Part shown: positions 10,459 through 40,878 of the stretch, in pieces
Layout: every line of letters begins with the position of its first letter
How positions within the stretch are numbered: the first letter of the stretch is position 1
IMG/VR virus record: IMGVR_UViG_3300050821_003066
Location: 1-44,154 of that record
Origin: a virus
Strand: one strand, 5' to 3'
Length of the DNA: 44,154 nt
Position numbers and translations under genes: made by a program
The notes under the pieces: generated by a model
Told to the model about the DNA's origin: nothing
Seen by the model: the letters and a program-made list of their open reading frames with translations, nothing else
Database searches by the model: none

Positions 10459-10745
10459 TGGCGACGTGCATTTTGACACATTCACAGGTAACTGCTTGGG
10501 AAGTATCAGGAATACGTCCTCCCTGTAAATATCACTATCATACTTCTTTCACTAAAGCACAGCAAGCTGTGCATGGTGATGAAGCTATCTGGATTCCTGA
10601 ACTCAGGGCTATTGTGATGTATACATGTGTCCTTCGATACGTTTGGACAGGCCGTAGGAGTGGTGGCTATAGTACGCTTCAACTTACTGCAGTTGTTGGG
10701 CGGAAATCTCCTATAGGACTCTGCGCTGAAGCTAGAAAACATTAA
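10458..10745 (+). CDS. hypothetical protein (95 aa), GTG start
   Basis: The start is GTG at 10458, overlapping the previous stop (TAGTG), with GGAGG 10 bases upstream. The protein has scattered cysteines and histidines (RPPCKYHYHTSF) and a beta-rich centre. Its stop overlaps the ATG of the large terminase by 1 base. No family is recognised. Confidence 0.6.
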   Translation: MATCILTHSQVTAWEVSGIRPPCKYHYHTSFTKAQQAVHGDEAIWIPELRAIVMYTCVLRYVWTGRRSGGYSTLQLTAVVGRKSPIGLCAEARKH

Positions 10746-17921: not shown

Positions 17922-18805
17922 TGGAAATAGTGCTAACAAGTACCCACTGCTCTAATCACTTATATAGGATGGCGGGCTGTAGTGACTGTGACCTCCTAAA
18001 GATTAGAGTTAAGCATGGTATTCATCATCTTCAGATTGATCATGGTACTCCAAGTCCGAAACTCCAGTTAGTTCGTCAGCAATTGCAGGCTGTATTAAGT
18101 AGCTTCCTTAGAAAGGCTGCGAAGAAGGCGGCTAGTGCAGCTGAACAGAAAGCAGCAGAAGTTATCAAGGCTGATGAAGACGAATTGATGCAGATCCTTT
18201 ACGCCGCCAACGGTGCTGTTGATTGGGAAGAGATTGTTGATAGTACAACTAGCGAACTAAAGACTGCATATGAAGATGGCGGTAAGGATGGTATCGCACA
18301 ATTAGCTATCAGCCATAATCTAGTCCCTGATATGACAGATAAAGTAGTAAGCAGTGCTGAACAGTACGCAAAGAAACGTGCAGCTGAAATGGTAGGCAAG
18401 AAGTTCATTGATGGTGAGTTAATCGGTGATTCTAATGCCGAATGGGTAATTGCTGAGACAACAAGGGACGATCTAAAAGATATTATCGAGATGGCTGTTA
18501 CGCAGAAAATGTCGTCTCAGGAATTGGCAACTGCTATCCAAGAAGCAGGTACATTTAGCGAAGCAAGAGCTGAACTAATCGCAAAGACAGAAATCGCGCT
18601 TGCTCAGGTTCAAGGTAATCTCGATGTATGGAAACTTACAGGTTTTGTTAAGACAGTAAGCATCCTGCTTAGTGCAGATCACGATATAGTCGACGAATGC
18701 GACGATGCTGCAGCAGGTGGGCCTTACCCAATTGATGATATGCCTTTTGTTCCACGACATCCTAGATGTAAATGTGTAATCATAGCTACAGAGATTTCTG
18801 AATAG
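17921..18805 (+). CDS. minor head protein (SPP1 gp7 / Mu F-like)
   Basis: The start at 17921 overlaps the portal stop by 1 base. Residues about 10-23 carry HCSNHLYRMAGCSDC, a CxxH-x6-CxxC knuckle echoing the portal's C-terminal one. A long helical body follows, then the C-terminal VDECDDAAAGG and PRHPRCKC motifs typical of phage head morphogenesis proteins (metal- or zinc-binding). It likely sits inside the head at the portal and may be ejected with DNA or help assembly. Confidence 0.85.
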   Translation: MEIVLTSTHCSNHLYRMAGCSDCDLLKIRVKHGIHHLQIDHGTPSPKLQLVRQQLQAVLSSFLRKAAKKAASAAEQKAAEVIKADEDELMQILYAANGAVDWEEIVDSTTSELKTAYEDGGKDGIAQLAISHNLVPDMTDKVVSSAEQYAKKRAAEMVGKKFIDGELIGDSNAEWVIAETTRDDLKDIIEMAVTQKMSSQELATAIQEAGTFSEARAELIAKTEIALAQVQGNLDVWKLTGFVKTVSILLSADHDIVDECDDAAAGGPYPIDDMPFVPRHPRCKCVIIATEISE

Positions 18806-21680: not shown

Positions 21681-23681
21681 ATGCCGCGTTTTAATCAAGA
21701 AGAATATATTCAAGGTATCATCAGGGGTCGTCAGGCACTCGCGAAGGCCCTCAGTGATCCTAAAATCGCTGACCTTGCTAAAAGGGTACGAGATCTTGAT
21801 CCAAGGACTGACGAAAATATCCCAGTTAGCAAGCGTTGGACTCAGAATAACCCAGAAGTACTTGCTCTTAACAGGAGCTTGCTCAAAGCACAGAATGATG
21901 CAATGCAGGAACTGATTAAGACTAATCCTCCCGGAATGGGAACCTGGATTGGTTTTAACTTCTACGATCTTCGTGGACCTGCCTTCTTCCTATTCCCGTT
22001 GCTGACACCCTTTATTCAGATGATCCCGAAGAAAGGTAAAGTCAACGCAGGCGTTGGTACGGCAGCTCACTGGAAGGCGACACGTAATCCTAACTCCACC
22101 TACATTTATGCAGGTGTTCAGGAAGGACAACGTAACGCTATCGCAACTCCGAACGAAATCGATTACCTTGCGACTTACAAAGAGCTCGGTATGGAAGGTG
22201 GGAATACTTTCACATCGCAATGGGCTGGCGAAGGGTATACAGATAACCTAGCAGACGAACACTTCCGCAATCTCGCTCGTCTCCGGTTGCAGGAAGAGTC
22301 GATGACTCTGCTTGGTAACTCTGGTACCGCAGCCGGTAACCTTGGTTTCGCTCTTGGTCAGGCTAATAACGTAACAGCCGCACTTGCTACTTCAGACACG
22401 TTTAATAGTCCCGCTACTGCTGGATTACCGAACTCTGCCTGTAACGTATTTGCTACTGTTATCGCTATTACCGGCATGGGCATGAACCCCGGTGGTCAAG
22501 GTGGTTATAATGCTCCTCCAACTGTAGCAGCTGGTCTTGTTCCTACCTCAACACGTACCAACGTTGATGGAACAACTCTTGCCGTTGCTGGTGGTACGTC
22601 AGCTATGTCTAACGTATCAACAGCCGTCCTGACTAACGCTACTGCCAAATGGGTAACGTTGACAACGACTGCGATTGCCGGTGCAGTTGGCTACGCGTGG
22701 TACGTATTTGCCGGTACTAACGCCGGTGCGATCACTATCAATAGTGCATTGACATTGGCTGCCATCACGAGTTCACCAAAGGTTGTTATTGGTGCTACTC
22801 CTGCCGGTACTCAGTTCGCTAATGCTACTGGTCTATCAACTGATAGCAGCTTCCAGACGACTGACTTTGATGGTCTGTTGACTTACGCGTTTAAGAATGG
22901 CATCTGGACGGACATGAACAACGGTTCGTTCACATCAGCCGGTAACGGGCAAGTAGCAGAACTGGAAGCAGATCTTCTGGCACTGTGGAACGCATATCAA
23001 GCACAGCCTGATGCGATTTGGTGTTCAGCTGATGTTCGTCAGAAGCTGGATGCTGCAATCGTGTACTCCGCCACTGGAACCAACTCCTATATCTTCCCTT
23101 ACGATAAGGGTGGACAACAGAGCATCCTTGGTGGATTCATGGTGTCTGCTTATAAATCAAAGTACAGCGTAAATCCTGAGGGCGGGACAGCAATTCCTAT
23201 TCGTCTGCACCCAATGTTGCCCGCAGGTACTTTGTTCTATGACATTAACACCAATCCTTACCCACATAGCAGGATCCCGACTGTCAGGGAATTCTTCACT
23301 ATGCGCGACTATTATGCCATTGAGTGGCCAGTAGTCACTCGTGAATGGACCTATGGAACTTACATCCACGAAGTACTCGCGCATTATATGCCGTGGGTTT
23401 CAGCAATCCGGACTTCAATCGGGCCATTTGTGGCACCTTGCTGGATCGCTGCTGCTGTATTCGAAGAAAACTTCTTCACAGGTACTAAGACTCAATTGGT
23501 CCGACGTTACCTGACAGAAGTTTATGAAAATACTGGACTTGGAGCCAAGTTGGTTATGGGCCTCTATCGAAAGTATGGGCAGCAAACAGCAAAACTGGTT
23601 AAAAAGAATAGCTTTGTGAAGAAGGTCTTCACCAAGTTGTTTACTTCTGTTCTAAAGAAGGCAGAACAGAAATACGTCTAA
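21681..23681 (+). CDS. major capsid protein (HK97 fold) with insertion and C-terminal domain
   Basis: Residues about 1-245 and 395-580 carry HK97-like capsid features (helical N-terminal region, GMGTWIGFNFYDLRGPAFFL, then DAIWCSADVRQKLDAAI and HPMLPAGTLFYDINTNPY). An approximately 140-residue threonine/alanine-rich beta insertion interrupts the fold, probably an Ig-like surface domain. Residues 587-666 add CWIAAAVFEENFFTG, LVRRYLTEVYE and a basic end; this resembles the CWIA/CFIATA-type domain found at the C termini of diverse bacterial proteins. Total 666 residues is very long for a capsid protein. CAGGAG is the ribosome site. Confidence 0.85.
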   Translation: MPRFNQEEYIQGIIRGRQALAKALSDPKIADLAKRVRDLDPRTDENIPVSKRWTQNNPEVLALNRSLLKAQNDAMQELIKTNPPGMGTWIGFNFYDLRGPAFFLFPLLTPFIQMIPKKGKVNAGVGTAAHWKATRNPNSTYIYAGVQEGQRNAIATPNEIDYLATYKELGMEGGNTFTSQWAGEGYTDNLADEHFRNLARLRLQEESMTLLGNSGTAAGNLGFALGQANNVTAALATSDTFNSPATAGLPNSACNVFATVIAITGMGMNPGGQGGYNAPPTVAAGLVPTSTRTNVDGTTLAVAGGTSAMSNVSTAVLTNATAKWVTLTTTAIAGAVGYAWYVFAGTNAGAITINSALTLAAITSSPKVVIGATPAGTQFANATGLSTDSSFQTTDFDGLLTYAFKNGIWTDMNNGSFTSAGNGQVAELEADLLALWNAYQAQPDAIWCSADVRQKLDAAIVYSATGTNSYIFPYDKGGQQSILGGFMVSAYKSKYSVNPEGGTAIPIRLHPMLPAGTLFYDINTNPYPHSRIPTVREFFTMRDYYAIEWPVVTREWTYGTYIHEVLAHYMPWVSAIRTSIGPFVAPCWIAAAVFEENFFTGTKTQLVRRYLTEVYENTGLGAKLVMGLYRKYGQQTAKLVKKNSFVKKVFTKLFTSVLKKAEQKYV

Positions 23682-23709
23682 TTATTCTAGCTTGGCCTCT
23701 TCTAGTACA

Positions 23710-23717
23710 GGTATATA
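23710..23717 (+). promoter_or_regulatory. GGTATATA promoter-like box
   Basis: Located 20 bases before the ATG of the HNH gene at 23737 and just before TAGGAGG, giving this endonuclease its own start signal inside the late cluster. Confidence 0.55.
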
Positions 23718-23736
23718 CGTCTATAGGAGGCCAAGC

Positions 23737-24474
23737 ATGGAATTTATCTGGATTACAGATGGAATAGCATCAAGGAAACATCCAAAGGATACTGCTATTC
23801 CAGACGGCTGGAAAAGAGGACGATCCGGTGTTAATTGGACTGTAAGTCGTCCTCAAACAGAGGAATCAAATAGAAAGAGAAGTTTAGCTTTACAAGGCAG
23901 ACCTAGTCCTAATAAAGGACATACTTCTCCAAAGAAGAATTTAACTAACGTTGAATACTATGGAGAAGAAAAAGCAAAGATGATTGCTCAGAGTATTTCC
24001 GATAAACTAACTGGAAGAGCACCTTGGAACCAAGGTATTCCTCACAGTGAGTTGACAAAAGCTAGGATAGGAGCAGCAAGAGAAACTAGTATTGCTCGTA
24101 CTAGTGCAAGATATCGCAGATGGTCGAAGAGCGTACTTGATCGTGATTATCATCGTTGCCAACATTGCGGAGCAAGAAAACACAAATTTGGTGATGATGA
24201 TGCGATGTACGCTCATCACATTAAGGATTGGGAAAGATTTCTCGAACTAAGGTTCGTTACAGAGAATGGCTTAACTCTTTGTAATAGCTGTCATCCTAGA
24301 TTAGAGAATACGTTGCGAGTACTGGCGAGGAATAACATTACTCCTCCAACGATTATCTTAAGTGAAGGTGTTACAGTATGTGGTAAATGTCAACGCCTTC
24401 TCCCAAGTTGTAGTATCGAAGAAATAAAATGTTGTAGCTGTTCAAAAGACCTTCCATCGGGATGCCAGTCTTGA
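23737..24474 (+). CDS. HNH homing endonuclease with NUMOD-like motifs (245 aa)
   Basis: The ATG at 23737 has AGGAGG; the in-frame start at 23692 has no ribosome site. Residues about 1-30 (IWITDGIASRK, IPDGWKRGR) and 45-95 (NKGHTS, YYGEEKAK, PWNQGIPHS) are NUMOD3-type DNA-binding segments. The nuclease core has CQHCG, MYAHHIKDWE and GLTLCNSCHPRLE. A third cysteine group (CGKCQ ... CCSC) ends the protein. It lies between capsid and later genes and is probably a mobile intruder that cuts phage genomes lacking it. Confidence 0.85.
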   Translation: MEFIWITDGIASRKHPKDTAIPDGWKRGRSGVNWTVSRPQTEESNRKRSLALQGRPSPNKGHTSPKKNLTNVEYYGEEKAKMIAQSISDKLTGRAPWNQGIPHSELTKARIGAARETSIARTSARYRRWSKSVLDRDYHRCQHCGARKHKFGDDDAMYAHHIKDWERFLELRFVTENGLTLCNSCHPRLENTLRVLARNNITPPTIILSEGVTVCGKCQRLLPSCSIEEIKCCSCSKDLPSGCQS

Positions 24475-26308: not shown

Positions 26309-26659
26309 ATGCCATATTATTTACAGGACGCGGGAACGAATAACTGGCAGATGGGAGTTAACCCTCTTGGACAGTTAACGACTACAGGTGTCGGTGCTGT
26401 AACAGTCCCGATTTATGTCTTAAAAGATAGTAGTAATAATTGTTGGCAGCTAGGAATTACAACTAGTGGACAACTAACTACAACATCAGTCGGCGTTACA
26501 ACATCGACTGTGATTAGTTTACAAGATGTTAATAGTGCTATTTGGAGTGTAAACATAACAACATTAGGACAGTTAACAACGACATTTGTGGAATTCTTGA
26601 CATTTAATGCTGTAGTAATTACTACAGAGTGCCAATGGTTAGGAAGTGACGGATGGTAA
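26309..26659 (+). CDS. three-repeat beta protein with QWLG end (116 aa)
   Basis: Three repeats of about 33 residues each contain an LxD..NN.WQ-like start and GQLTTT end (YLQDAGTNNWQMGV; VLKDSSNNCWQLGI; SLQDVNSAIWSVNI). The C terminus is ECQWLGSDGW, a tag of the QWLG type also found at the ends of later proteins here. It is likely a structural or binding protein. No strong ribosome site is seen (GGAA only). Confidence 0.65.
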   Translation: MPYYLQDAGTNNWQMGVNPLGQLTTTGVGAVTVPIYVLKDSSNNCWQLGITTSGQLTTTSVGVTTSTVISLQDVNSAIWSVNITTLGQLTTTFVEFLTFNAVVITTECQWLGSDGW

Positions 26660-28020
26660 AGAGAATACTCATACTTCTGCTATTGCTGTTAACGGCTAAT
26701 TGTTTAGTGGCGCAAACCCATACGCAGGCCGTGCTTGATGTACCACAAACATGGACAGCAAGTCAGACATTCTCTACCATTAATACCTTTCAGGCCGGAT
26801 CAGCGTTTGGAGGAAGTACAGCTAACCTCTCAATCCTAGGTTTCTTAAACGACTCTAACACTGCGCCTGTCCTCAACATCGATACTCCTATGGGAACTAG
26901 CGGGCCGCAGCAAGGGGCAGTGCGCTTTGGAACGAACGGCTTCAGCCAATTCCAGATATGTAACTTCGGTGGAGGTGCTGGTGCTGCTGGAGCCAACATC
27001 TTCGGTTCGACCGTAGCGTGCGGCAGTATCTACACCACAGCGTTTGCGAAAAACATATTTATGACTGGCAATGCTGCCCATACCCTTATTCGCGGTTGGG
27101 AGGCCAGTGCAGCCTCTACCAGCGATATGATCCAGTTGAACAATGCTACAGCTGCAGGAACGGGATTCAACTTCCTTACAGCTTACGCTGGTGTCTCAGG
27201 GACAGATACCTTTCACACAGGTGGTACTAAGGTGTTCAGCGTGGATGGTGCTGGTGACGGTTTCTTCGCAGGTACATTGGGAGTGACAGGACACTTCACG
27301 GTCGAAGGCGTGACTTCTACAGGAGCAAGTGGGACAGGAAAGCTTCTATTTGACACAGGGAGTACTCCCGCCTCCATGACGTTAACTAACGCTACTGGGC
27401 TACCTATCTCAACGGGAGTATCCGGTCTGGGAACTGGTGTGGCAACATTCTTGGCAACCCCAAATAGCGCTAACCTTATGTCCGCAGTTACAGATGAAAC
27501 GGGCAGTAGTGGTAGTTTAGTATTCTCAAACTCTGCAACCCTCGTCAATCCGACACTAGGTACACCAGCGTCGGTAACTTTAACGAATGGTACGGGATTA
27601 CCAGGAGCGGGTATTGTTAGTGCGTCAGTCACTGCGACTCAGCTTGCTGCGCAGTACAGTAAGGGATCGTGTACGGAAGTATGGGGCGGTTCTGGAACTT
27701 CATTCGCAATGGCAGCCGGAGATGACGCAATCTCTAATAATTCCTGCTACAACGACTCCGGCGTCACGCGAACCATCACAGCAGTCAAGTGCCGTTCAGA
27801 CAATGCCGCGAATACTACCGCGCTAACTCCTACATTTGGCTCGGCAGGTACAGGCACAGCAATCCTTACCGGTACAGTGACATGCGGCAACTCCTACGCT
27901 TATTCATCTACCGGTACAGTGACTAACGCCGCATGGACGACTGGTACTGGAATCGATCCCGGTATGACAACTATCGGTAATGCGACCAGTATCGCCTTGA
28001 TCATGGAGTACACGTACTGA
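26653..28020 (+). CDS. tail-fibre-like protein with Sec signal (455 aa)
   Basis: Residues 1-20 are a clear signal peptide (MVKRILILLLLLLTANCLVAQ region). The body has fibre-like repeats (TWTASQTFSTINTFQAG; GLGTGVATFLATPNSANL; SLVFSNSATLVNPTLGTP), a set common in phage tail fibre or spike stalks. The C-terminal part is a beta domain rich in T and G. A signal peptide on a fibre-like protein is unexpected. It starts 7 bases before the previous gene ends and overlaps the next by 1. Confidence 0.7.
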   Translation: MVKRILILLLLLLTANCLVAQTHTQAVLDVPQTWTASQTFSTINTFQAGSAFGGSTANLSILGFLNDSNTAPVLNIDTPMGTSGPQQGAVRFGTNGFSQFQICNFGGGAGAAGANIFGSTVACGSIYTTAFAKNIFMTGNAAHTLIRGWEASAASTSDMIQLNNATAAGTGFNFLTAYAGVSGTDTFHTGGTKVFSVDGAGDGFFAGTLGVTGHFTVEGVTSTGASGTGKLLFDTGSTPASMTLTNATGLPISTGVSGLGTGVATFLATPNSANLMSAVTDETGSSGSLVFSNSATLVNPTLGTPASVTLTNGTGLPGAGIVSASVTATQLAAQYSKGSCTEVWGGSGTSFAMAAGDDAISNNSCYNDSGVTRTITAVKCRSDNAANTTALTPTFGSAGTGTAILTGTVTCGNSYAYSSTGTVTNAAWTTGTGIDPGMTTIGNATSIALIMEYTY

Positions 28021-29435
28021 TGTGGCGATTACTCTTACTCATTCCTCTTCTATGCGCGCATGCGGTGGCGAGCATATCAGTTGACTCAACTAGCAATAGT
28101 GGATCAACTACTTTGTCCGGATCATCGTTTACCTGGAATCACACCGTAGGCGCAGGCTGCACGAACAGCGTCCTCGTTATTCAGGTCGCCGGAGTTCTTA
28201 ACGATCCAAACGCATTGATGGTAAGTTCGGTCGCTTTCAACAGCGTCAACGCAAAGTTAGCGATTCGTGGTAGGGATCATGGCGGCTCTGAGATGGCTAT
28301 ACTAGAGTGGATTCTGGTTGCGCCTGCTTCTGGAACGCACGCGATACTGGTAAGTCTGTCTCGCGCGCTGAGTGGCGAATACATTGCTGGTTCTGCTGTG
28401 TCGTTTTGTGGAGTGCATCAATCCTATCCGGTACGCCTGCCTTCATTCTTCCATACAGGACTAACGAATAGCGCGACGTTGACGGCTACTTGTTCGGATG
28501 CTATCTCAGGAGATTATCTTGTCGGTCTTGCTCAAGGCCACGAGACTACTATTACGCAGAATGGATCGCAAACGGCTATTTTTACTTCAAATGCATTTGG
28601 CGCTGGAGAGGCAACAAGTTGGGCTTCTGCTTACATTGCCGCTGCGACAAGAACCACATTGATCTGGACACAAACCTCCGGTGACGGGGATGCAACCTGT
28701 ATCAGTTTACGACCTACGACCGACATCCCAACCATTCCCGCGTTTGATACCTATGCACAGGCGATAGGAACTACAGTAGGAACTCCATTCAAGGTAACGA
28801 TGAGCAACTATGTAGTGAGTAGCAGTCCTAATGGTTTGCTACTCTATCTCGCAACCTACGATACGGCAGCTAACACTATTTCCAGCGTTACTTTTGGTGC
28901 AGCGAATCTAACCAAGTTGCAAACGTGCACCAATGCCAGCGGGAATGGAGCAGAAATTTGGTATCTCAAGAATCCTACTGCATCCACAGCGAATATCGTG
29001 GCAACGTTCTCAGGTACGATGGATAACTACATGGGGATGGCAGAGACTTGGTTCCTGGTCAATCAAGGCTCTAGCGGGACCACTGCTACCGGGACCTTCA
29101 CCACTGTAGCCAGCACCTCTTTGGCGTCCGGAACGGTAACAGTAAGTGTCCCGTCTACGACTACTTCAATGGTTGTGCAAGATATAGCCAGCGTCTTTGA
29201 TTATTCCTATCAGGCTGTCCCGACCGGATCCGAAATAGAAAGTTTGGCTAGCGACCAAGGGTCGAGTGACGGTACAACGGATAGTGCTTTGTCACAATTT
29301 AAATTAGGGACTGGGGGCACGGTAGCGATGAGTTGGACCAACTCAGACACCAGTGGATTCTGTCAGATGGCTATGGGAATTATCTTCGGAAGCGGAGGGG
29401 TTGTTCGGCATCGTGCTTCAGTGGTAAACAAATGA
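28020..29435 (+). CDS. secreted protein with two fibre-like beta domains (471 aa)
   Basis: The signal peptide (MWRLLLLIPLLCAHAVAS) is followed by two related beta-sandwich domains, residues about 22-235 and 243-460, each with a W-containing strand and a FGSGG-like or similar ending. The same domain occurs once in each of the next two larger genes. The ending GSGGVVRHRASVVNK differs from those relatives, which run on into a QWLGG-type tag; here the tag is in the -1 frame (29432-29482). Confidence 0.65.
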   Translation: MWRLLLLIPLLCAHAVASISVDSTSNSGSTTLSGSSFTWNHTVGAGCTNSVLVIQVAGVLNDPNALMVSSVAFNSVNAKLAIRGRDHGGSEMAILEWILVAPASGTHAILVSLSRALSGEYIAGSAVSFCGVHQSYPVRLPSFFHTGLTNSATLTATCSDAISGDYLVGLAQGHETTITQNGSQTAIFTSNAFGAGEATSWASAYIAAATRTTLIWTQTSGDGDATCISLRPTTDIPTIPAFDTYAQAIGTTVGTPFKVTMSNYVVSSSPNGLLLYLATYDTAANTISSVTFGAANLTKLQTCTNASGNGAEIWYLKNPTASTANIVATFSGTMDNYMGMAETWFLVNQGSSGTTATGTFTTVASTSLASGTVTVSVPSTTTSMVVQDIASVFDYSYQAVPTGSEIESLASDQGSSDGTTDSALSQFKLGTGGTVAMSWTNSDTSGFCQMAMGIIFGSGGVVRHRASVVNK

Positions 29436-29482
29436 AGAAAATCTGCGACGAATACCAGTGGTTAGGCGGAGCTAATTTTTAA
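29432..29482 (+). CDS. 16-residue micro-ORF encoding a QWLGG tag
   Basis: ATG overlaps the previous stop (ATGA) in the -1 frame. It encodes MKKICDEYQWLGGANF and its stop overlaps the next ATG. The peptide matches the C-terminal tags of neighbouring proteins (EYQWVGDNS, DFHWLGGDE, ECQWLGSDGW). It is either reinitiated as a peptide or fused to the previous protein by a -1 slip. Confidence 0.5.
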   Translation: MKKICDEYQWLGGANF

Positions 29483-30201
29483 TGGCATTTACGCATATTC
29501 AAGGTAATTCTCACAACGCGACGGGTGTAACTACACTAAACGTGGTTCTTGGCGGGGCGCCTACTTTGGGAAACCTAGTGTGCGTAACTTTTTCTCCGGG
29601 TGGTTCGACAATATCTTCATTGGCGATAAAAGATTCTAATAATAATAGTTACGCAATAAGCGGTAATTCTCCTTCTACATTTATATCAGGCGCCGGACAA
29701 ATATACATGGCTTATCTGCTTTCGGCTCCAGCCAATGCTAGTGCGACCATTACTGCTACCTGGACCACAGTAACTTCGGCTGCAATGTGGGCGGATGAAT
29801 TTCACTATACAGGCGGAACTTGTAGTTTCGATATAGATATTGCAGCTAGTACTGCAAGTTCTGCAGTTACAATTAATACTCCAAGTATAACTCCGGCCGG
29901 TGCTGGTGAATTACTTTATTCTGGTGCTGCGGCTGGGGGAACAATAAGCGCTCCAGTTGCTGGCGGATCGAGCACAAATGGAATATGGACGGGATCAGAC
30001 GGAGCAATTGCTGCTGGCGACATGGCGGAATATATTCTCAGTTCTGCATCCGGAGCTACGGCAGTGAATTACACCCAGAGTTCCGGTGCTTGGTCAGCAA
30101 TGGCGATGGCTTTTATACTTACTGCTAGTGGGGGAGTAACGACTCCTTCAGGGATTACTTCTATAAATGATGAGTATCAATGGGTTGGGGATAATTCTTA
30201 A
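29482..30201 (+). CDS. fibre-like beta-domain protein with QWVG end (239 aa)
   Basis: A single copy of the beta-sandwich domain (FTHIQGNSHNATGVTTLNVV start; FHYTGGTCSFDIDIAAST middle; AMAFILTASGG end) and a C-terminal tail NDEYQWVGDNS. No signal peptide. It is related to both domains of the preceding 471-residue protein and to the next gene. Its stop overlaps the next ATG by 1 base. Probably a binding or adhesin protein on the virion. Confidence 0.65.
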   Translation: MAFTHIQGNSHNATGVTTLNVVLGGAPTLGNLVCVTFSPGGSTISSLAIKDSNNNSYAISGNSPSTFISGAGQIYMAYLLSAPANASATITATWTTVTSAAMWADEFHYTGGTCSFDIDIAASTASSAVTINTPSITPAGAGELLYSGAAAGGTISAPVAGGSSTNGIWTGSDGAIAAGDMAEYILSSASGATAVNYTQSSGAWSAMAMAFILTASGGVTTPSGITSINDEYQWVGDNS

Positions 30202-30896
30202 TGGCTTGGTCTAAAAATAACGATGTAACGAACACGAATACAGGCTCTCCGGTTACTGTTTCTCTTACGAATTCAACTATAGTTGGAAGCCTGATTGTGG
30301 TAGGTGTAATTAGTATACAAACTAATACATTTAATGTACCAACAGATACAGCAGGAAATACTTATGTTGATTGTGGTGTAGGGCAGTTATTGTTCAATGG
30401 AAGTGCTTACGTAATTCAGTTGTTTTACACTATTAATACTGCTGCAATATCTAATACAGTTTCAGTGTCACAGGTAGGAAATAGTGCAAGTTTCATGCGT
30501 ATAGTAGTCGAAGAATGGACTGGTAATGCTTTATCTAATCCAGTTGATGTTACAAGTAATTCTGGAAGTAATGCAAGTACGGGTACTGGTGGAGGACAGA
30601 ATGTTACAACAGGTCTGGCAACTACAAATTTTGCTGATTTAGTTATAGGATTTTGTGATGTTGTAGGAGGTACGTTAACGACAGGCACTGGATTTACAAC
30701 TGCTGCTAGTGATATCATGGAGAGTCTAATTCAGACGGTGGCAGGATCAGTAGCAGCCACGTGGAGTGATAATACTAATAGTGATTCGTATACCGCTATA
30801 ATGGCAGCGTTTAAAGCGTTTGGAAGTGGCGGTGTAACATTCAGTAATGCTTCAGTTATAGGAACAGACTTTCATTGGTTAGGTGGAGATGAATAA
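30201..30896 (+). CDS. fibre-like beta-domain protein with HWLGG end (231 aa)
   Basis: Paralogue of the 239-residue protein: TVSLTNSTIVGSLIVVGVIS, VEEWTGNALSNPVDVT, IMAAFKAFGSGGV and the tail DFHWLGGDE. Its end overlaps the start of the giant gene by 8 bases, with AGGTGGAG serving as that gene's ribosome site. Confidence 0.65.
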   Translation: MAWSKNNDVTNTNTGSPVTVSLTNSTIVGSLIVVGVISIQTNTFNVPTDTAGNTYVDCGVGQLLFNGSAYVIQLFYTINTAAISNTVSVSQVGNSASFMRIVVEEWTGNALSNPVDVTSNSGSNASTGTGGGQNVTTGLATTNFADLVIGFCDVVGGTLTTGTGFTTAASDIMESLIQTVAGSVAATWSDNTNSDSYTAIMAAFKAFGSGGVTFSNASVIGTDFHWLGGDE

Positions 30897-33800
30897 ATTG
30901 GTTAAATTTACAGTATTTTTATTTATACTGTTTGCATCATCATTACCAGGTTTCGCAACTTGTTCTGGTAGCGGCATTGCATGGTCATGTACTTCAGGTA
31001 GTACTGCCGCTCAGGTTAACACGGTAATCGGGTCAGCCTCGGACGGGGCGGTAGTGACATTCGCTAACGGCTCTTACTCGTGGAGTTCGACTATCAGTTT
31101 TTCTCTATCGACCGGAATTACTTTTATCTGCGCAAATGGAGCTACTTGCACAGTTACTTCCAGTGCTATAGCGGCCTTCGGATTCCCTACTGGGAGTTCC
31201 ACTAAACTATATCGTATATCGGGATTTACGTTTCCTTCTGCCGCTGGTACGGTATGGACCTGTCCCGCTGGAGGGTGTACTGGGACTATCACCCAATTCC
31301 GCTTTGACCACAACACCTGCACTGGGATAACGGCTTCGGCTACCGTTATCACCATAGGAGAAAATACCTCTATACAGTACGTCTACGGCGTCATTGACCA
31401 CAATACGTTCTCGAGCGCCAGTTCCTTCGCTGCTATGCAGGTATTCGGGATCGCGGATGCTAGCGCTCCTGCCAGTGCGCAGGGAACAATCAGCAACATG
31501 TTCATGGAAGACAATACGATCACCGTCACCACCATGACCGATAGCGGAACCGGAGCGATGGACGGTTGGGGGCCGATGGCCGCTGTAGTGTTCCGTCACA
31601 ATACGGTGACCAACGCCTTAGTAACAATTCACTCTGCCGAAACAGTCGGAGGACACGGGAACGGAGCAGCCAACTGGGAGGTCTACAACAATCATGTAAT
31701 TGGTACTTCCGGATCTGCTGTTCCTGACGGATATCGTCTTATTCACCATCAGGGATCGTTTGAGGAAATGTACTTCAACAACACATTTACCCCTTTCACC
31801 GAACCAATCAACTCTGATGCCTTGTCTTTGGCAGCTAATTATCCTCCGCAGTACACTGGATCGTATCCAACCATTTATCAGCCGGGGCGGGACTACCATG
31901 CCCATCTGCTCTACCCCGTCTATGGATGGAACAACCGGGACACGATAAACGGGAACAAAGTGCCGGAAGCTGATGAATCCGGATTTCCCACTTACTTTGC
32001 TCCCAATCGTGATTGGTATGACGAGGTGGGTACAGGTCCGCAAAGCTCTACTACATCGCCGTTCAATGGAACTTCTGGCGTGGGGTTCGGTACTTTAGCG
32101 AGACGTCCTTCGACCTGTACTCCAACACCTTCTGTTCTGGCACCAGATCAAGGACGAGGTGGTGTAGGTTACTTCGCTACTGATCAGGGTACGCAGGGAA
32201 TTCTATACTCTTGTACGTCAACGAATACATGGGGCGTTTGGTACACGCCTTACACTTATCCCCACCCTTTGATAAGCAGCGCAGCTTCTACTCCAACCTT
32301 CTCTCCTGGTGCAGGAACATACTCTGGTGCACAGAACGTCACACTCCATGCAACTAGTGGTGGTGTGATCTGTTGGAATACAGCAGGTGCTCCAGCAACT
32401 GACGGGGTTAGTGGCTGCACGACAGGAACTCCCTACACCGGGCCTGTAGGAGTCCCAATCACTGAGACTCTATTCGCGATAGCAGGAGGAACTGGATTCA
32501 CGGATAGCGCAGTCGGATCAGCAGCATATGTAATTAATCCAGCACAATCGGCTCTTCCTGCTCTTAAAGTAGACAATAACGAATGTAACACCAACTTCAC
32601 CTACACACTGGCCTTTCCGACAAGTTGGGCAAGTGCTACTCCGGTAGGCTGGCCAACTGCTCTTCCTTACGCAAACACCGACGCAGGCGTACAACAAGCC
32701 TTACTCGACATGGATACGTACCGTACCTCAACCGGTAAGGGGACACGGATACATATCCCTGCTAGATATGTTTATTCAGAAGCAAATGGACCGTGGATTA
32801 ACCAAACTAGTACAGTCGCAGCTACGCAATGTAACGTCATCGACTCGACGGAGGACGGTAGCCTTCCAATCGGCAGAACAGTCGGCTCGCACGGCATCCA
32901 AGACGACGTTGCAGGGAATCCTGCTGTAGTTAGTACAAGTGGGGTTACGGTTACTTTCGTCAGTGGAACTAACTTTAAATCCTTAGTCGGTGCTGGTCAG
33001 CCAGTCAATATAAACGGTATCAATTACAATACTGCCTCATCGTGGTCTCCTATAACACCTTTTACTACGTTGACACTTGCCACTAGCGCAGGAGCACAAA
33101 CAAATGTAAGCTTTACAACTACCACAGATATCGGCCTACATAATCCGAGTAACGATGGCCTGAATATGTACGACGAGTTAGGGCCGCAGAATATTGGTGG
33201 CGTTATCACAGGAGTCACCACTCTTGATGCGCACACGACAACACTGGCCGCTATCACCCTGAATGCCTCTCCGCAACTGGTTGCGCTTGCTAATGGTTAT
33301 GTCAGTCCTGGAAACTCCTACGTGGTTGATACTGGCGTAAATGCTGAAACTGTGGTCGCAGTAAGCGGAGTAAATCAGACGGGACTATATGGTGTGTTCA
33401 CGCTTAATCATGCTAGCGGGGTGACGGTAACTTATGATATAGGAACAATTACGCTGGCTAATGGTACTGTCGTGCATACTTCTGACTACAACGACGTACA
33501 GCATATGTGGACAGCAGAAAGCACGGCGGCTAATGCTTCGTCCATCCGCTTCTGCTCCCCGGTTGGCGGGCAAACAACGGCCCAGCCATCTCCTCAGTGC
33601 ACTAGCACGACGCTCGCGCCTGATCATTGGCTGATTATGGACATGGAAGCCCGTCCGAAGGCCGTATTCGTAAACGGCAGCACCCCGACTCCAGTCTTGA
33701 TGACTGGCTCGGGAGCTGAAACTGCTTGTAACCAGTACCCGCAGCACATACACTTCCGAAAAGACTGGTCACACAGCGATTGGACTAGTCTTGCGTCAGG

Positions 33801-35745
33801 ATTGAATCCTGTAGGAAACTTAATGTTCCTGAATGGTTCCTACGTTTCTGTTCTCGACACGCAGGCAGGACAGGCCATACGACCAGGCGCCGAGGGACAC
33901 ATCATTCTTATGGAAGGCTGTGGACCTTATAAGATGAACCACAATTGGCTAGAGGGGATGAGTATTGGGATGTTCTCCGGAGGGCCGGGAGGAATACTAC
34001 CGGTCGGATTGCAACAGATATTCCAAGACGTAGAGGCTCGTAGATACAAAATGGGCCGACCTTATACGTGGCTAGGCGGAAATTTAAGTGGTAATCCCCA
34101 CTTTGCAGGTAATAGTACCGTATTCAAGAACTTTAACGAACTGAAGAATGGGCAGCGCGTTCTGCACTCCGGATATATTTGGGAGAATATAGATGGTTCA
34201 GGTGGGCAGAGTGGACCTCAGGGAGATGTCACTGATCGAAATTGCTCAGCGGCTACGCCGTGCAGTAACTACAACACCATCATCACTGACGCTATATTCG
34301 AGTACGGAATCCTAAGAAATTCCTGCATTGGCATGGAGTTCGACAGATCTAATCTAGCCATAGGTAATGGTAATGGAGTGGCCTACGGGGTGTACCGCTC
34401 GACCTTGCGGCACCTACTTACTTATGGAATCAGTGGCCACAACCCAGGATGCTCCATTGCCGGAAACATCAAGGGTATAGCCTTGTCGAACGGCAGCAAG
34501 ACACTTTGGCAGGGAACTATCAAAGGGGACGGTACGACAGCAACATTCGTTGCCAACTGCTCCGTACAGCAAGGTGGTTGTCCGGGACACATCTCGAGTA
34601 TCGCGGTAAACGCCGCAGGAACTGGATGCGTGGCAGGAAGCTTAGTAATTCCTGCTCCTAACATCTCAGGCGGCACTCAGGCCGCGGGAACGTATACCTG
34701 CACCAGTGGAGCGCTAGCGACGGTAACACTCACGGCAGGTGGAACAGGCTACACATCTACCCCCTCAGTTACTCTGGCTACCGGGACAGGCACCGTAACC
34801 GTAACGATGGTCACCTCCCCAACGGCACCAACCATCGGAGCCGAAGTATTCGATATGCAGGTTGGAGATCCGGTCGCAATCACGATGTGTAACGGTACAC
34901 CAGCATTCAACAATGTCACAACTTCAAGCAACGGCGGCTTCATTAATCCTAGTCAGAGAGGTCCGCTGGCTACCGCTGCTAGCGCTCCATGGACTGGTAC
35001 TGGAATTGCTGGCAATCTGACAGTCTCCTTCCCATCCACGGTAACCGGAACCGACAACGGAGGCTTCTGCACAATTAGCGGTCTACAAGGAGGACCATTC
35101 AACCTAACCCTCCAACACGTCACGCAGATTACGGACAACACTGGCCCCGCGCTGACCAGTAACAACAGCCCGTCAGGTGGCTTCAACTTCCAGATGAATG
35201 CAGCTGTCCTTGACTCGATTATGCTAGGCGGTAATGGTTGGCTTGGTGGCTCAGTTACAGAAGGCACCCAGACGGAGAATCTGAATTACGACTCGACTAC
35301 TATGGCAGCCCACCACCTGGTATGGCCAATAGCTGTGGCGTCGAACTACACTGAGTATGGTAACAATCCAAACTATCCTGACTCCGCGGGCTGTACTGGT
35401 GCTGGATGCCACAATCCGGTAACGATGTACTTCCCAACAGCTACATTCTGCTCAGGGGCCATTGCTAACTCAAATTGCATAGGATTCTCGGGGGCCATGA
35501 GTGCAGCCTCGATGCCAATCACACTGCCTGATTATCATAGCTTCGCGCTCGATCCTACTAGTCTCTTCAAGGGAGGGGGCACGCAGCAAGCTTCAGACGG
35601 TACAGATATGGGGCCAAATATCTCCGCCATTGATGCTGCGCAAACACGGAATCAGTACAATGCACCTGGATTTTTCCCTGATGTTCAAAGCAGTGGTCCC
35701 CCGCCAACTCCCCACGGTCTAACAGTTTTAGGTGTAGGACAATAA
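30889..35745 (+). CDS. giant secreted beta-helix protein (1,618 aa)
   Basis: The ATG at 30889 is chosen over a GTG two codons earlier. A Sec signal peptide (residues 1-25) ends near FATC. Residues about 30-440 look like a right-handed parallel beta-helix of the pectate-lyase type (DGAVVTFANGSYSWSSTISF, FRFDHNTCTG, VFRHNTVTNA, VYNNHVIG). Residues about 464-546 resemble a chitobiase C-terminal-like domain (SPGAGTYSGAQNVTLHATSG). Further beta-helix-like regions follow, with Cys-containing GGTGYTSTPSVTLATG repeats near 1280-1305. It could be a depolymerase or spike, but the signal peptide suggests export. No catalytic set is certain. Confidence 0.65.
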   Translation: MNKLVKFTVFLFILFASSLPGFATCSGSGIAWSCTSGSTAAQVNTVIGSASDGAVVTFANGSYSWSSTISFSLSTGITFICANGATCTVTSSAIAAFGFPTGSSTKLYRISGFTFPSAAGTVWTCPAGGCTGTITQFRFDHNTCTGITASATVITIGENTSIQYVYGVIDHNTFSSASSFAAMQVFGIADASAPASAQGTISNMFMEDNTITVTTMTDSGTGAMDGWGPMAAVVFRHNTVTNALVTIHSAETVGGHGNGAANWEVYNNHVIGTSGSAVPDGYRLIHHQGSFEEMYFNNTFTPFTEPINSDALSLAANYPPQYTGSYPTIYQPGRDYHAHLLYPVYGWNNRDTINGNKVPEADESGFPTYFAPNRDWYDEVGTGPQSSTTSPFNGTSGVGFGTLARRPSTCTPTPSVLAPDQGRGGVGYFATDQGTQGILYSCTSTNTWGVWYTPYTYPHPLISSAASTPTFSPGAGTYSGAQNVTLHATSGGVICWNTAGAPATDGVSGCTTGTPYTGPVGVPITETLFAIAGGTGFTDSAVGSAAYVINPAQSALPALKVDNNECNTNFTYTLAFPTSWASATPVGWPTALPYANTDAGVQQALLDMDTYRTSTGKGTRIHIPARYVYSEANGPWINQTSTVAATQCNVIDSTEDGSLPIGRTVGSHGIQDDVAGNPAVVSTSGVTVTFVSGTNFKSLVGAGQPVNINGINYNTASSWSPITPFTTLTLATSAGAQTNVSFTTTTDIGLHNPSNDGLNMYDELGPQNIGGVITGVTTLDAHTTTLAAITLNASPQLVALANGYVSPGNSYVVDTGVNAETVVAVSGVNQTGLYGVFTLNHASGVTVTYDIGTITLANGTVVHTSDYNDVQHMWTAESTAANASSIRFCSPVGGQTTAQPSPQCTSTTLAPDHWLIMDMEARPKAVFVNGSTPTPVLMTGSGAETACNQYPQHIHFRKDWSHSDWTSLASGLNPVGNLMFLNGSYVSVLDTQAGQAIRPGAEGHIILMEGCGPYKMNHNWLEGMSIGMFSGGPGGILPVGLQQIFQDVEARRYKMGRPYTWLGGNLSGNPHFAGNSTVFKNFNELKNGQRVLHSGYIWENIDGSGGQSGPQGDVTDRNCSAATPCSNYNTIITDAIFEYGILRNSCIGMEFDRSNLAIGNGNGVAYGVYRSTLRHLLTYGISGHNPGCSIAGNIKGIALSNGSKTLWQGTIKGDGTTATFVANCSVQQGGCPGHISSIAVNAAGTGCVAGSLVIPAPNISGGTQAAGTYTCTSGALATVTLTAGGTGYTSTPSVTLATGTGTVTVTMVTSPTAPTIGAEVFDMQVGDPVAITMCNGTPAFNNVTTSSNGGFINPSQRGPLATAASAPWTGTGIAGNLTVSFPSTVTGTDNGGFCTISGLQGGPFNLTLQHVTQITDNTGPALTSNNSPSGGFNFQMNAAVLDSIMLGGNGWLGGSVTEGTQTENLNYDSTTMAAHHLVWPIAVASNYTEYGNNPNYPDSAGCTGAGCHNPVTMYFPTATFCSGAIANSNCIGFSGAMSAASMPITLPDYHSFALDPTSLFKGGGTQQASDGTDMGPNISAIDAAQTRNQYNAPGFFPDVQSSGPPPTPHGLTVLGVGQ

Positions 35746-36370: not shown

Positions 36371-38386
36371 ATGCCGAACTTCATAGGAGGTGTAGGAACT
36401 GGGTTTCCTATAAGCCCGTTTGAATTCTTTACACAGCCTCCTCCCTCGCAACCTCCTCCGATAATTTTAAATTGGTATGATGATACTGACCATTTCCCAC
36501 AAGATCTATTCAATTACTTTTCAGGTATAGCAGGATTGCAACTAGCTGAATATAGTATGGGGGATAATACAGAACTTCCATCGCCAATTGCCGTAGTATC
36601 AAACATAGTATTAATGGGATATACAGGCTACTGGACTTCAAAATCACTAATGTTGCAGGCTGATGATAGTACAGAACGGATTACAATTCCAACTGAAGCA
36701 TTTGATACAGATGCTGAACAACAGACTGATCCTTCTAGATTATGGGCACCGAATCAATATATAGCTAGTTTCTTCACTAATGATGACGATTTATCAGATA
36801 CTGGCGTAGAATTGATTACTTTACCGATTACAGGTTGGGATACAGATGCAGAGAATCAATTCTTACAACCCAGTTGGTATTTAGATTTAATAGAAGAACG
36901 TAATGAACTACCTATTATACTTATTGTTGCTTACGACACTGATGCAGAACAACAGAACCAACAACTAGGACTTACAGGAATACAAACAATTCAGATACCT
37001 GAGGTTGCGATTGGTGATAATAATGAACAACCTGTAATTCCAATACAGGCTTACGACACGGATGCTGAACAGCAATTCCAACAGCCTACATATCTGACAG
37101 ATAGAGATCTATCAGATGCGGGCGTAGAAATTCTGCCTCAGTTATCTGTAGCATCTGATACTATCCTAATGGGGTATAGAGGATATTTTATTCCAAAGTC
37201 TCTGATGCTTCAGTCAGATGATGGTGTAGAAAAGATAACTATAATCACGTTACTTACAGATTTTACATGGGACAACGATACAGATAATCAGTTCTTACAA
37301 GCCGCTTGGTCTAGAGATCTCTATACTCCTGAACGGGAAGTTAGTGATTTGGGAGTTGAGCGTATTATAATCCCGATTAACTCATGGCAAGACGATGCAG
37401 AGCAACAGAAATTGAATCCTGTAAGTTTTGGTTCAGATATACTAGCAGATGAGGGAGTGGAAAAGATTACTCTTCCCGCTATTGTTGCAACAACGACATG
37501 GGATGATATCAATGAACAGTCAACGCTGCTAGCTGATTACTTTAAGGATCATCTTTCAGACGAAGGAATAGAAATCCTGCCTCAGTTGTTTTCAGGTACT
37601 GATACTATATTGATGGGATATAAGGGATATTTTATTCCAAAGTCTCTGATGCTTCAGGCTGATGATAGTGTAGAATTAATAACTGTAATCGTTATAATAA
37701 CCGATCATACTTGGGACGATATTAATGAGCAACTTCCTCAAGCTCCTTGGTATCTAGATCAAGTAGAAGAAAGAAATCAATTACCTATTATCCCGAAGAT
37801 GGAAATTGATAATGATGCAGATCAACAACGTCTTAATCCATCACCTTTCGGAACAGATACCGTAATGGATGAAGAAGTAGAATTGATTACACTGGCGCCT
37901 GCTGTTCCTACTAGAGGGATGGATACAGATGCAGAAAATCAGTTATCTCAACTACCTTATCAGCTTGATGAAAGCGTATTCGATGCACAGATAGAAGTAC
38001 TCCCGCGGTTATCAGGTGCTACAGATGTTATCCTAATAGGATATCAAGGTTATAGTATACCTAGATCGTTGATGTTGCAGGCGGCTATCGAAGACGTAGA
38101 AATAATTATTGCTCCTGCACGATCTTTTGATACAGATGCAGAGCAGCAGTTCGCCTCACCACTATATCAGGTAGATAGAGATGTAACAGATGCGGGTGTG
38201 GAAAATATAATATTTTCTGGTATTACGTCATCGTTAACTTGGGACAACGATGCTGAACAGCAATTCATACCAGTCTTCTTAGCTTGTGACGATCAGATGG
38301 ATAGTGGAGTAGAGTTTATATCCCTTCCTCCATTTATCGATATAGTCGAAATAGTTGCTGGAGGTGAGGACGAAAATGACAACTAA
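36371..38386 (+). CDS. acidic DTDAEQQ-repeat protein (671 aa)
   Basis: The protein is built from many copies of an approximately 35-residue element with [YFW]D[TN]DAEQQ and DRDLSDAGVE-like parts, plus four copies of a longer element with ILMGYxGY then SLMLQ (starting near residues 80, 266, 413 and 554). It is strongly acidic and rich in Q. The regular DxDxE spacing could bind calcium. The N terminus is proline-rich (QPPPSQPPPIILNWYDD). No family is recognised, no signal peptide. Neighbours suggest a fibre or virion surface role. A second gene at 38792 shares the repeats. Confidence 0.65.
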   Translation: MPNFIGGVGTGFPISPFEFFTQPPPSQPPPIILNWYDDTDHFPQDLFNYFSGIAGLQLAEYSMGDNTELPSPIAVVSNIVLMGYTGYWTSKSLMLQADDSTERITIPTEAFDTDAEQQTDPSRLWAPNQYIASFFTNDDDLSDTGVELITLPITGWDTDAENQFLQPSWYLDLIEERNELPIILIVAYDTDAEQQNQQLGLTGIQTIQIPEVAIGDNNEQPVIPIQAYDTDAEQQFQQPTYLTDRDLSDAGVEILPQLSVASDTILMGYRGYFIPKSLMLQSDDGVEKITIITLLTDFTWDNDTDNQFLQAAWSRDLYTPEREVSDLGVERIIIPINSWQDDAEQQKLNPVSFGSDILADEGVEKITLPAIVATTTWDDINEQSTLLADYFKDHLSDEGIEILPQLFSGTDTILMGYKGYFIPKSLMLQADDSVELITVIVIITDHTWDDINEQLPQAPWYLDQVEERNQLPIIPKMEIDNDADQQRLNPSPFGTDTVMDEEVELITLAPAVPTRGMDTDAENQLSQLPYQLDESVFDAQIEVLPRLSGATDVILIGYQGYSIPRSLMLQAAIEDVEIIIAPARSFDTDAEQQFASPLYQVDRDVTDAGVENIIFSGITSSLTWDNDAEQQFIPVFLACDDQMDSGVEFISLPPFIDIVEIVAGGEDENDN

Positions 38387-38792: not shown

Positions 38793-39883
38793 TGTTTGAA
38801 TACCTCTATCCTGATGAACAGTACGTAAAGCAGCTGGATATTATAATCCGGCAAGAACAGGAGGCCTTTGTAGGATTGACTGTAGCTCCGATCATACAGC
38901 AACAGGAATACGATCAACAACATGTATTATCATTACAGAAATGGCAAGTATCTTATGATGAAGTTGATGCTATAGTAATATGGCAGATTCCCAATTTTGT
39001 AGCTCCGTCGTCAGCAATGGCGGCAACTCTCAATATATCTAAGAGGCAAAGATACTGGGCACCAAAAGCAGCGATGATGGAACTTTTTCCTGTAGAATTA
39101 CCTCAATACGCTGTAGGTGTAGTTACAGGTTGGGATAGTGATGCAGAGCATCAATTTCTTCGACCTCCTTCTTTTAGTTCAGATTCCTCCGGTGAAGTTG
39201 AGTCAATTAACATCGTGGTTATTCCTGCTGCTTTTGATACAGATGCAGATCAGCAGTTTGCACAGGATCCTTATTTACTTGATAGAGAAATAAGTGATCC
39301 AACAGTAGAAACAATTTTAACAGGTATATTCCAGTTCACTTGGGATGATGCATCTGAATGGTCTAAGTCTCAACCTGAGTATTACAAAGATCATCTAATG
39401 GATGAAGGCGTAGAAAAGGTTTTCTTACCTTCCCAATTCTTTGACACAGATGCAGATCAACAACGAGCACAGGAGCCATACCAACTTGATAGAGATGTAA
39501 CAGATGCGGGAGTAGAAAATATCATACTAATTCCCATTCGCGATTTTTCATGGGATGATAGTGCTGAATGGCAACAGCTTAATCCGCTACAATTCTCATC
39601 CGATACATTAATGGATGAAGGTGTAGAACTCATTACTATCCCAATACCTATTGTAGATTTCACGTGGGATAATGATGCAGAGCAACAATTCTTACAACCC
39701 AGATGGTATCAAGATGCATTTGATGGTACGGAAGCTTATACACAAGTTCCAATTACTTTGTTCATCCTAGCAACAGGTGGTGTTACCCCTGCTTCGTTAG
39801 CAACTGGCGGAGCAATAAGTGAACCTATTCTAGCGGGGGGAATTGTTGAGCTTGTTATAGACGTAGACGGAGATATCATATGA
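38792..39883 (+). CDS. acidic DTDAEQQ-repeat protein, second member (363 aa)
   Basis: Contains the same repeat family as the 671-residue protein: GWDSDAEHQFLRP, FDTDADQQFAQDP, FDTDADQQRAQEP and WDNDAEQQFLQPRW, with WDDxxEW variants between. An APKAAMMELFPVEL motif looks like a degenerate relative of the SLMLQ element. It ends with a G/T/I-rich segment (LATGGVTPASLATGGAISEP). Two adjacent genes sharing these repeats suggest duplication and a joint role, perhaps in the same fibre. Confidence 0.65.
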   Translation: MFEYLYPDEQYVKQLDIIIRQEQEAFVGLTVAPIIQQQEYDQQHVLSLQKWQVSYDEVDAIVIWQIPNFVAPSSAMAATLNISKRQRYWAPKAAMMELFPVELPQYAVGVVTGWDSDAEHQFLRPPSFSSDSSGEVESINIVVIPAAFDTDADQQFAQDPYLLDREISDPTVETILTGIFQFTWDDASEWSKSQPEYYKDHLMDEGVEKVFLPSQFFDTDADQQRAQEPYQLDRDVTDAGVENIILIPIRDFSWDDSAEWQQLNPLQFSSDTLMDEGVELITIPIPIVDFTWDNDAEQQFLQPRWYQDAFDGTEAYTQVPITLFILATGGVTPASLATGGAISEPILAGGIVELVIDVDGDII

Positions 39884-40878
39884 GTACGATTCCAATCGCC
39901 CCACCTACTTCGATGACATTTCGATGTTTACAGCAGTCACAAATTACCTGGACCTTAACTGATCCTACAGGCTTACCTATTACAGGAATGACTGTTGTTG
40001 CTACACTTTATGCAAATAGAAGTCGATCAAATCCAGTAGCGCAACCGGGAACAATTGCAGATCCCAGTTTCAGCAATCTTGCTTTACCTGAAACTATCCC
40101 AGGAGTTTCCGGTATCTATCAAGGAGTGGTTCCAGCAACATTTAATCCGGCACAGTCATTGACTGGCTACTTAGTCGTTATTACAGCGTCGAGTGGCGTT
40201 ACATTAGTTGATACGTGGTCTATTCCTGGAGTAGTAGTTTTCCCTCAGGTAACATCCGATCTTGTCGAATTAGATGATGTTAAGTCTTGGTTAGGAATTG
40301 AGTCAACTAACACAGATGATGATGGTATCCTTCAACTTCTAATTAGTTCATTCAGTCGATACGTTCTCAATCGTACAGGACAGTCTTCTTTTACTTCAGT
40401 TAATCCTTATGTTGAGATTTATGACGGGAATAATGCAAGTCGTTTATTCCTTCGAAACTGTCCAATTGTATCAATTTTATCGATTATAGTTGGAAATTAT
40501 ACAATTCCTCAATCGGCAGGACTAACTAATTCAGGTTGGTATATTGATCCATCAGCTAAGGCAGTCGCATTAAGATGGAATACATCCGGGTTCCAAATAT
40601 CTGCACAGACGATATGGCCGGGACGTTTCTCAAGAGGACAAGGTAACATACAGGTAAGCTACACAGCAGGGTATGCATCTGTCCCTTTCGATCTCCAAGA
40701 GGCAGTAATGGAGGCAGTAGCTATTAACTACGAACGCAAAGATTGGATCGATCTTGCCAGCAAGACACTAAGCAGTGGTCAAGGTGTAGCCGGTACAACT
40801 CGATATAGAGATTGGTTTATGCCTCCGGGAATTGAGCGTATCATTGAACACTATTCACGAAGAGCATTGGCCTACTAA
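39880..40878 (+). CDS. head-tail connector (gp6-like) with N-terminal Ig-like domain
   Basis: Residues about 125-332 match HK97 gp6-type head-tail adaptors (LVELDDVKSWLGIES, LLISSFSRYVLNRTG, VPFDLQEAVMEAVAINYERK), which dock below the portal. Residues about 1-120 are a separate beta domain (TFRCLQQSQITWTLTDPTGL), probably an added Ig-like surface domain. It overlaps the preceding repeat protein by 4 bases. This gene restarts the canonical head-to-tail order after the insertion. Confidence 0.75.
   Translation: MSTIPIAPPTSMTFRCLQQSQITWTLTDPTGLPITGMTVVATLYANRSRSNPVAQPGTIADPSFSNLALPETIPGVSGIYQGVVPATFNPAQSLTGYLVVITASSGVTLVDTWSIPGVVVFPQVTSDLVELDDVKSWLGIESTNTDDDGILQLLISSFSRYVLNRTGQSSFTSVNPYVEIYDGNNASRLFLRNCPIVSILSIIVGNYTIPQSAGLTNSGWYIDPSAKAVALRWNTSGFQISAQTIWPGRFSRGQGNIQVSYTAGYASVPFDLQEAVMEAVAINYERKDWIDLASKTLSSGQGVAGTTRYRDWFMPPGIERIIEHYSRRALAY

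Follow-up and report, generated by a model that had tools for sequence, protein, structure and literature searches.

A C-terminal peptide recurring in the head-gene cluster of a soil phage, with one copy in a 16-codon reading frame, may serve as a docking module

We analyzed a 44,154-base IMG/VR virus record from a soil phage, referred to here in its full length as the window. As listed in Table 1, genes for a terminase, a portal, a minor-head protein, and a head-tail adaptor were identified, and o666 was assigned as the gene of the major capsid protein. Its AlphaFold model, built with 37 relatives (mean pLDDT 72), contains an inserted beta domain at about residues 224-387, and structural alignment with VIA-align 2 yielded Z scores of 14.2 against the SPO1 capsid, 8.8-12.0 against encapsulins (several at 11.5-12.0), and 9.0-11.3 against HK97. 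Foldseek on its own gave no o666 match at E ≤ 0.001, so the assignment is based on VIA-align 2 and on gene position; by sequence, the protein falls into phrog_13692 (function unknown) and into no named family. A gene for a homing-endonuclease-like HNH endonuclease with a NUMOD3 motif (23692-24474) directly follows the capsid gene. Further downstream, an ORF of 671 aa (36371-38386) contains diverged internal repeats of ~140 nt (37107-37246 versus 37551-37690, 80.7% identity), which were not picked up by a tandem repeat finder.

Table 1. Features of the window and, in the last rows, zinc-ribbon proteins of related phage loci
Feature	Position	Strand	Remarks
Terminase	10745-12499		
Portal	16248-17921		
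Minor-head protein	17888-18805		
o666, major capsid protein with HK97-type predicted fold	21681-23681	+	AlphaFold model and structural alignment
o116, three short repeats and C-terminal tag	26309-26659	+	ORF list, by eye
Tag ECQWLGSDGW	26627-26656	+	End of o116
o455, signal-peptide-like N terminus, no tag	26653-28020	+	N terminus by eye
o471, signal-peptide-like N terminus, no in-frame tag	28020-29435	+	N terminus by eye; ends GSGGVVRHRASVVNK
Micro-ORF, 16 codons, -1 frame relative to o471	29432-29482	+	MKKICDEYQWLGGANF
Tag EYQWLGGANF	29450-29479	+	Inside the micro-ORF
o239, ends in tag	29482-30201	+	No assigned family
Tag EYQWVGDNS	30172-30198	+	End of o239
o231, paralogue of o239, ends in tag	30201-30896	+	
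Tag DFHWLGGDE	30867-30893	+	End of o231
o1618, signal-peptide-like N terminus, no tag	30889-35745	+	N terminus by eye
Head-tail adaptor	39880-40878		phrog_442
Zinc-ribbon proteins, L092	14585-16102, 18037-18750		
Zinc-ribbon protein, L065	17027-17818		
Zinc-ribbon proteins, L070	209-451, 17715-18500		
Zinc-ribbon proteins, L081, L086, L088, L028			Further loci

Downstream of o666 and upstream of the adaptor gene lies a chain of genes, from o116 to o1618, that overlap at every joint (by 7, 1, 4, 1, 1, and 8 nt). The initial annotation had claimed that four neighboring stop codons in this region are preceded by one type of peptide, and we found the peptides and their coordinates as described, within a head-gene cluster. 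Three of the copies are indeed C termini of proteins, but these proteins, with 116, 239, and 231 aa, are not large as had been stated; the fourth copy lies in the micro-ORF. The accompanying label of fibre-like proteins was dropped, since no family match backs it: in curated Pfam, PHROGs, and NCBIfam, the proteins matched no family, those of decoration proteins included. The repeats of o116 follow the pattern LxDxxxxxWxxxxxxxGQLTTTxV by eye. The paralogy of o239 and o231 was evident in phmmer searches of a 12-sequence set (E values of 5e-5 and 1e-4), and the model of o231 is beta-rich at a low confidence (mean pLDDT 43.5), too poor for structure search. Searches of PDB sequences with o471 and with a profile of the domain gave no credible match, one match of the profile being at E 0.9. 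The large o1618 protein contains a chitobiase C-terminal-like domain that scores just under the curated cut-off. We also observed that the three genes of the window with a signal-peptide-like start (o455, o471, and o1618) carry no in-frame tag and that the three tagged genes have no such start. A signal-peptide-like N terminus was recognized by eye in a related locus as well (L025, 12625-13257, between the capsid and adaptor genes). From this distribution we infer that the tagged proteins may be retained inside for assembly and that the signal-peptide-like ones may be exported.

The tag was then evaluated as a peptide. When the last 16 residues of 20 frames in the window were compared, the six pairs of tagged tails scored 26-42, and the remaining 184 pairs scored 22 or less, which bears out the earlier claim of a conserved C-terminal peptide. 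Shuffling of residues never reached the observed score in 20,000 trials for the micro-ORF/o239 and o116/o231 pairs; it did so in 7, 44, and 46 of 20,000 trials for micro-ORF/o231, o116/o239, and micro-ORF/o116, respectively, and in 346 of 20,000 for o239/o231, the weakest tail pair. None of 20,000 Markov-random frames of 48 nt attained the micro-ORF/o239 score either. At the DNA level, seven tag codons of the micro-ORF and o239 differ at 1, 1, and 6 places in codon positions 1, 2, and 3, and third-position differences dominate in most pairs, the weakest being o116 versus o239 (2, 2, and 3). The glycine after W-L/V is encoded by GGA, GGC, GGG, and GGT across the four copies. Because the codons differ mainly at third positions, it is the protein rather than the DNA that has been conserved, and this also holds in the frame of the micro-ORF. 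A DNA repeat or recombination linker was rejected as the source of the tag on the same ground, and an Rfam element or tRNA was rejected with 0 matches at gathering scores. These data indicated that the tag is very likely real as a peptide module; since no close homologues were found, its conservation is read from four copies in one genome. Literature matches to QWLGG and like strings concerned animal neuropeptides, as judged by titles, and a limited search found no literature on this phage.

The tag is carried, as judged from sequence comparison, by two unrelated types of protein body, the short-repeat protein o116 and the beta-rich paralogues o239 and o231. The tail of o116, LTFNAVVITTECQWLG, matches that of o231, VTFSNASVIGTDFHWLG, with a score of 40, whereas the bodies of the two proteins score only 43, compared with 401-933 for paralogous pairs in the same list; outside its tail, o116 has no detectable similarity to o239 or o231. 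Tails were compared with bodies for 8,021 same-strand gene pairs from the window and the loci of 70 relatives (frames of at least 70 residues, the micro-ORF excluded). Tail scores of at least 34 were obtained for 13 of the 8,021 pairs, nine of which have related bodies (401-933). The other four pairs, with unrelated bodies, are the pair in the window and three pairs of zinc-ribbon proteins, two of which are near-duplicates.

The micro-ORF begins, as the initial annotation described, in an ATGA overlap with the stop codon of o471 (-4) in the -1 frame, and it ends in a TAATG overlap with o239 (-1). Without it, the gap between o471 and o239 would be 46 nt. Its frame is open upstream only as far as a stop at 29300, so that the frames of o471 and the micro-ORF overlap from 29303 to 29435. 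Of 200,000 simulated 46-nt gaps, 3,517 (1.8%) produced an ATGA start together with a -1 overlap onto the following ATG, and the geometry alone is thus weak evidence. Considered together with the peptide match, which was never attained by random frames, it makes it very likely that the micro-ORF frame is, or recently was, coding.

How the micro-ORF relates to o471 was then assessed. The o471 protein contains two tandem stretches weakly similar to o239 and o231 (18-27% identity, best phmmer E of 0.025 in the 12-sequence set). Its end, FGSGGVVRHRASVV, parallels the end of o231, FGSGGVTFSNASVI, and the linker FGSGGV...ASVV is retained ahead of its stop. When o471 was joined to the micro-ORF by a -1 step and fitted to the tail of o231, steps before 29430 and 29433 tied as the best among 44 (score 70), whereas o471 without a step reached 53 and the micro-ORF by itself 32. 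With the tail of o239 as the reference, the ATGA junction scored 60, and 8 of 44 steps scored higher (best 64, at 29400 and 29406), which leaves the precise site of the frame change uncertain. The earlier view of o471 as an untagged relative of the tagged proteins is plausible by the parallel end and the fit to o231, but similarity over the whole domain is weak and the fit to o239 is not the best one. On these comparisons, the micro-ORF probably represents the C terminus of o471, with its tag, in a displaced position. The simplest history would be the loss of one base from an A run, creating both the stop and the ATGA; recombination could just as well have left the frame change as a scar.

The distribution of the tag was examined in several collections. 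Searches of viral contigs for o239, o231, o471, and o116 found only a near-identical record of 125 kb (IMGVR_UViG_3300021168_000016), and a set of 50,697 phage records contained nothing that matched o471 or o231. The 125-kb record has the same arrangement of tag and micro-ORF; compared over 1-830 and 11681-44154 of the window, with 831-11680 left aside, the sole mismatch lies at 28676, outside the micro-ORF. Sequencing error was rejected, as the two records agree (though they are perhaps from the same sample). Elsewhere in the 125-kb record, only one more match to the tag fell outside longer ORFs; this match, ...STIQWVGV, forms the end of an AAA ATPase and was taken as chance. The search for the tag in related phages, put forward in the initial annotation, turned up no further copy: the tag was present in none of 71 capsid-related loci scanned on the plus strand (70 viral loci and one contig of a metagenome-assembled genome [MAG], several being near-duplicates), a count that bounds its range only loosely, because E ≤ 1e-3 is out of reach for a query of 16 residues and some loci stop shortly downstream of the capsid gene. 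The tag is thus not part of the core of this group. With tblastn at E ≤ 1e-3, o116, o239, o231, and o471 had no match among these loci, and o455, o1618, and o197 had six in all.

Two pattern scans of viral contigs found a credible C-terminal tag in this phage only. EYQWLGG occurred in 20 stretches, one being this phage and the other 19 lying 23-402 residues from a stop or contig end. A looser pattern occurred in 21 stretches, two of them from this phage; those in L053, L063, and L055 lie 8-14 residues from a stop, but the frames concerned are short and run antisense to, or out of frame with, longer ORFs, and the remaining ones lie further from any stop. In 396 Acidobacteriota genomes, the tag pattern matched five times, versus seven for a reversed control pattern; two of the five matches lie near a stop, namely DYQWFGGICGP, 11 residues from the stop of a 79-codon frame (L143), and DFHWLGG, 16 residues from the stop of a 166-codon frame (L145). 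When the four domain stretches were combined into a profile, 9 of the 396 genomes gave a match (E of 1e-7 to 4e-4) and none of eight other records did, and the domain type may thus exist in cells. Two of the nine matched proteins, long complete frames (L134 and L137), end without the tag; the others were not judged, three running off the locus and four having an insecure reading frame. By these searches the tag looks like a private feature of one phage, which leaves no conservation among phages from which its function could be read. A search with an alignment of five capsid proteins found one contig of an Acidobacteria MAG, and an acidobacterium may thus be the host. That contig (JABCZL010000017.1, 123,707 bases) and a virus record, the pair L065 and L067, are identical in size and match coordinates, however, so a phage contig appears to be part of the MAG.

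Short terminal address peptides are already known, for the cargo of encapsulins and for internal proteins of phage T4. Targeting (cargo-loading) peptides of Family 1 encapsulins are described as short C-terminal peptides on proteins encoded with an HK97-fold shell (PMC8346489). The present locus resembles that system in that a gene for a predicted HK97-fold shell lies near the tagged genes and one short C-terminal peptide occurs on unrelated bodies (o116 versus o239 and o231). It differs in its motif, which by eye is unlike the TVGSL reported for encapsulins (PMC8346489). It differs also in that the shell gene has a tailed-phage context (portal, terminase, and adaptor) and that the bodies are beta-rich or repeat proteins rather than enzymes. 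In T4, the capsid targeting sequence is N-terminal and cleaved, whereas the tag here is C-terminal. That shared sequence is described as sending different, even foreign, proteins into the head (PMC3012670). For the Ig-like accessory protein Hoc of T4, the same source reports that C-terminal, and not N-terminal, fusion affects capsid binding, and that it "reduced the Kd by 500-fold," which is read here as weaker binding (PMC3012670). No sequence relation to Hoc was found for o116, o239, or o231, and their attachment to the capsid is putative.

Taking these results together, we propose, at somewhat less than even confidence, that the tag is a private C-terminal docking peptide for head-associated proteins and that one copy has been split off by a frame change. 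The module would have the form [DE]-[YFC]-[QH]-W-[LV]-G-[GSD] within a tail of up to ~20 residues, and two or more unrelated accessory proteins, whose genes lie between those of the major capsid protein and the head-tail adaptor, would carry it. Through this module the proteins would attach to one shared partner within the particle, for which the capsid is the nearest candidate. Docking is the most economical reading because the capsid gene is nearby, and we put it forward tentatively. In o471, the tag would have been shifted into the -1 frame when a single base changed close to the AAA that precedes today's stop, as suggested by the splice fit. The micro-ORF would stay open through its overlaps with both neighbors, by which ribosomes ending o471 restart on it and then on o239, and also through the Shine-Dalgarno-like bases that its codons place ahead of o239. 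On this proposal o471 is now made without the tag, which, if made at all, would be a free peptide of 16 residues. Should the docking module be confirmed, a shared C-terminal peptide would be a handle to tell particle proteins of uncultured phages and a natural route to swapping displayed proteins, and the split copy would show that a tag can be lost or freed by one base change.

Translation of the micro-ORF by termination-reinitiation has known parallels. Overlaps of -4 and -1 are described as by far the commonest between genes, and gaps of ~20 nt as almost abolishing translational coupling (PMC10666635). Because the same -4 and -1 overlaps, at which termination-reinitiation is reported (PMC6728339, PMC10666635), link o471, the micro-ORF, and o239, reinitiation across the three is plausible from the gene layout. 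Unlike in known reinitiation pairs, the middle gene here has 16 codons, and its peptide is elsewhere the tail of a protein. The product of reinitiation at the ATGA would be a peptide on its own and not a protein bearing the tag. We consider the chances even that the micro-ORF is translated at some level. A role for the free peptide, which might compete for or cap the docking sites of swappable head proteins and so tune their entry into the particle, is a speculative extension that we regard as improbable.

Rather unlikely, in our judgment, is that the micro-ORF is a dead remnant, the tag of o471 having recently been lost, through a shift of frame or replacement of the gene, and its codons having no translated purpose. 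Such a remnant would agree with the length of only 16 codons, with a Shine-Dalgarno match of only 3/6 ahead of the start, with an ATGA that is possibly incidental after loss of one base in the A run, and with the frequency of the geometry in simulated gaps. The frame is intact, however, its DEYQW.G matches o239 through synonymous codon changes, and without the micro-ORF the chain of overlapping genes would be broken by a gap of 46 nt.

We also weighed whether the tag is mostly a by-product of ribosome-binding sites in gene ends, which we consider unlikely. The tag codons TTA GGN GGA double as a Shine-Dalgarno-like site, giving AGGNGGA, and coupling would fix its position; the next start lies within the last tag codons or at the stop in all four cases. 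Matches of 5/6 to AGGAGG were found in the tag DNA of o116 (AGGAAG, 6 nt before the start of o455, which falls within the last tag codons), of the micro-ORF (AGGCGG, 12 nt before o239), and of o231 (AGGTGG, 2 nt before the o1618 ATG at 30889). But the spacing is poor in two of these three, and the site before o231 is weak (3/6) even though o239 does end in the tag. AGGAGA without the tag peptide serves five other genes that were checked (o666, o154, o197, g88, and g236), the third base of GGN takes all four values, and E-Y-Q-W upstream of the glycines is left unexplained. Use as a Shine-Dalgarno site may help to keep the glycines of the tag, but not E-Y-Q-W.

Programmed -1 frameshifting, which would fuse the tag to part of the o471 protein and yield the tagged and untagged forms suggested in the initial annotation, is very improbable: the two frames do overlap, and a -1 step at A AAC AAA, which adjoins the stop and is among four heptamers with 3/4 re-pairings, would yield ...ASVVNKMKKICDEYQWLGGANF, but the overlap contains no slippery heptamer X XXY YYZ, the RNA of 29380-29520 folds no better than shuffles (z of -0.35, pseudoknots being outside the method), and no relative was found that could reveal a conserved shift site.

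Some observations were made in the related phages themselves. A zinc ribbon, CxxCGS...GGM..CNQCG, is common to the C termini of unrelated proteins whose genes lie close to that of the capsid (Table 1); one of the bodies is methyltransferase-like by Pfam, and others are glycosyltransferase-like by eye. In L092 and its near-duplicate L100, the zinc-ribbon tails score 57 on unrelated bodies. Of 71 records scanned, the window included, 23 had a C..C motif within the final 18 residues of a protein, and not all of these motifs are of the zinc-ribbon type. Finally, a Radical-SAM-like protein of L025 (15413-17455) appears by eye to contain an intein, starting with CLEAGTQI and ending with VHNC.
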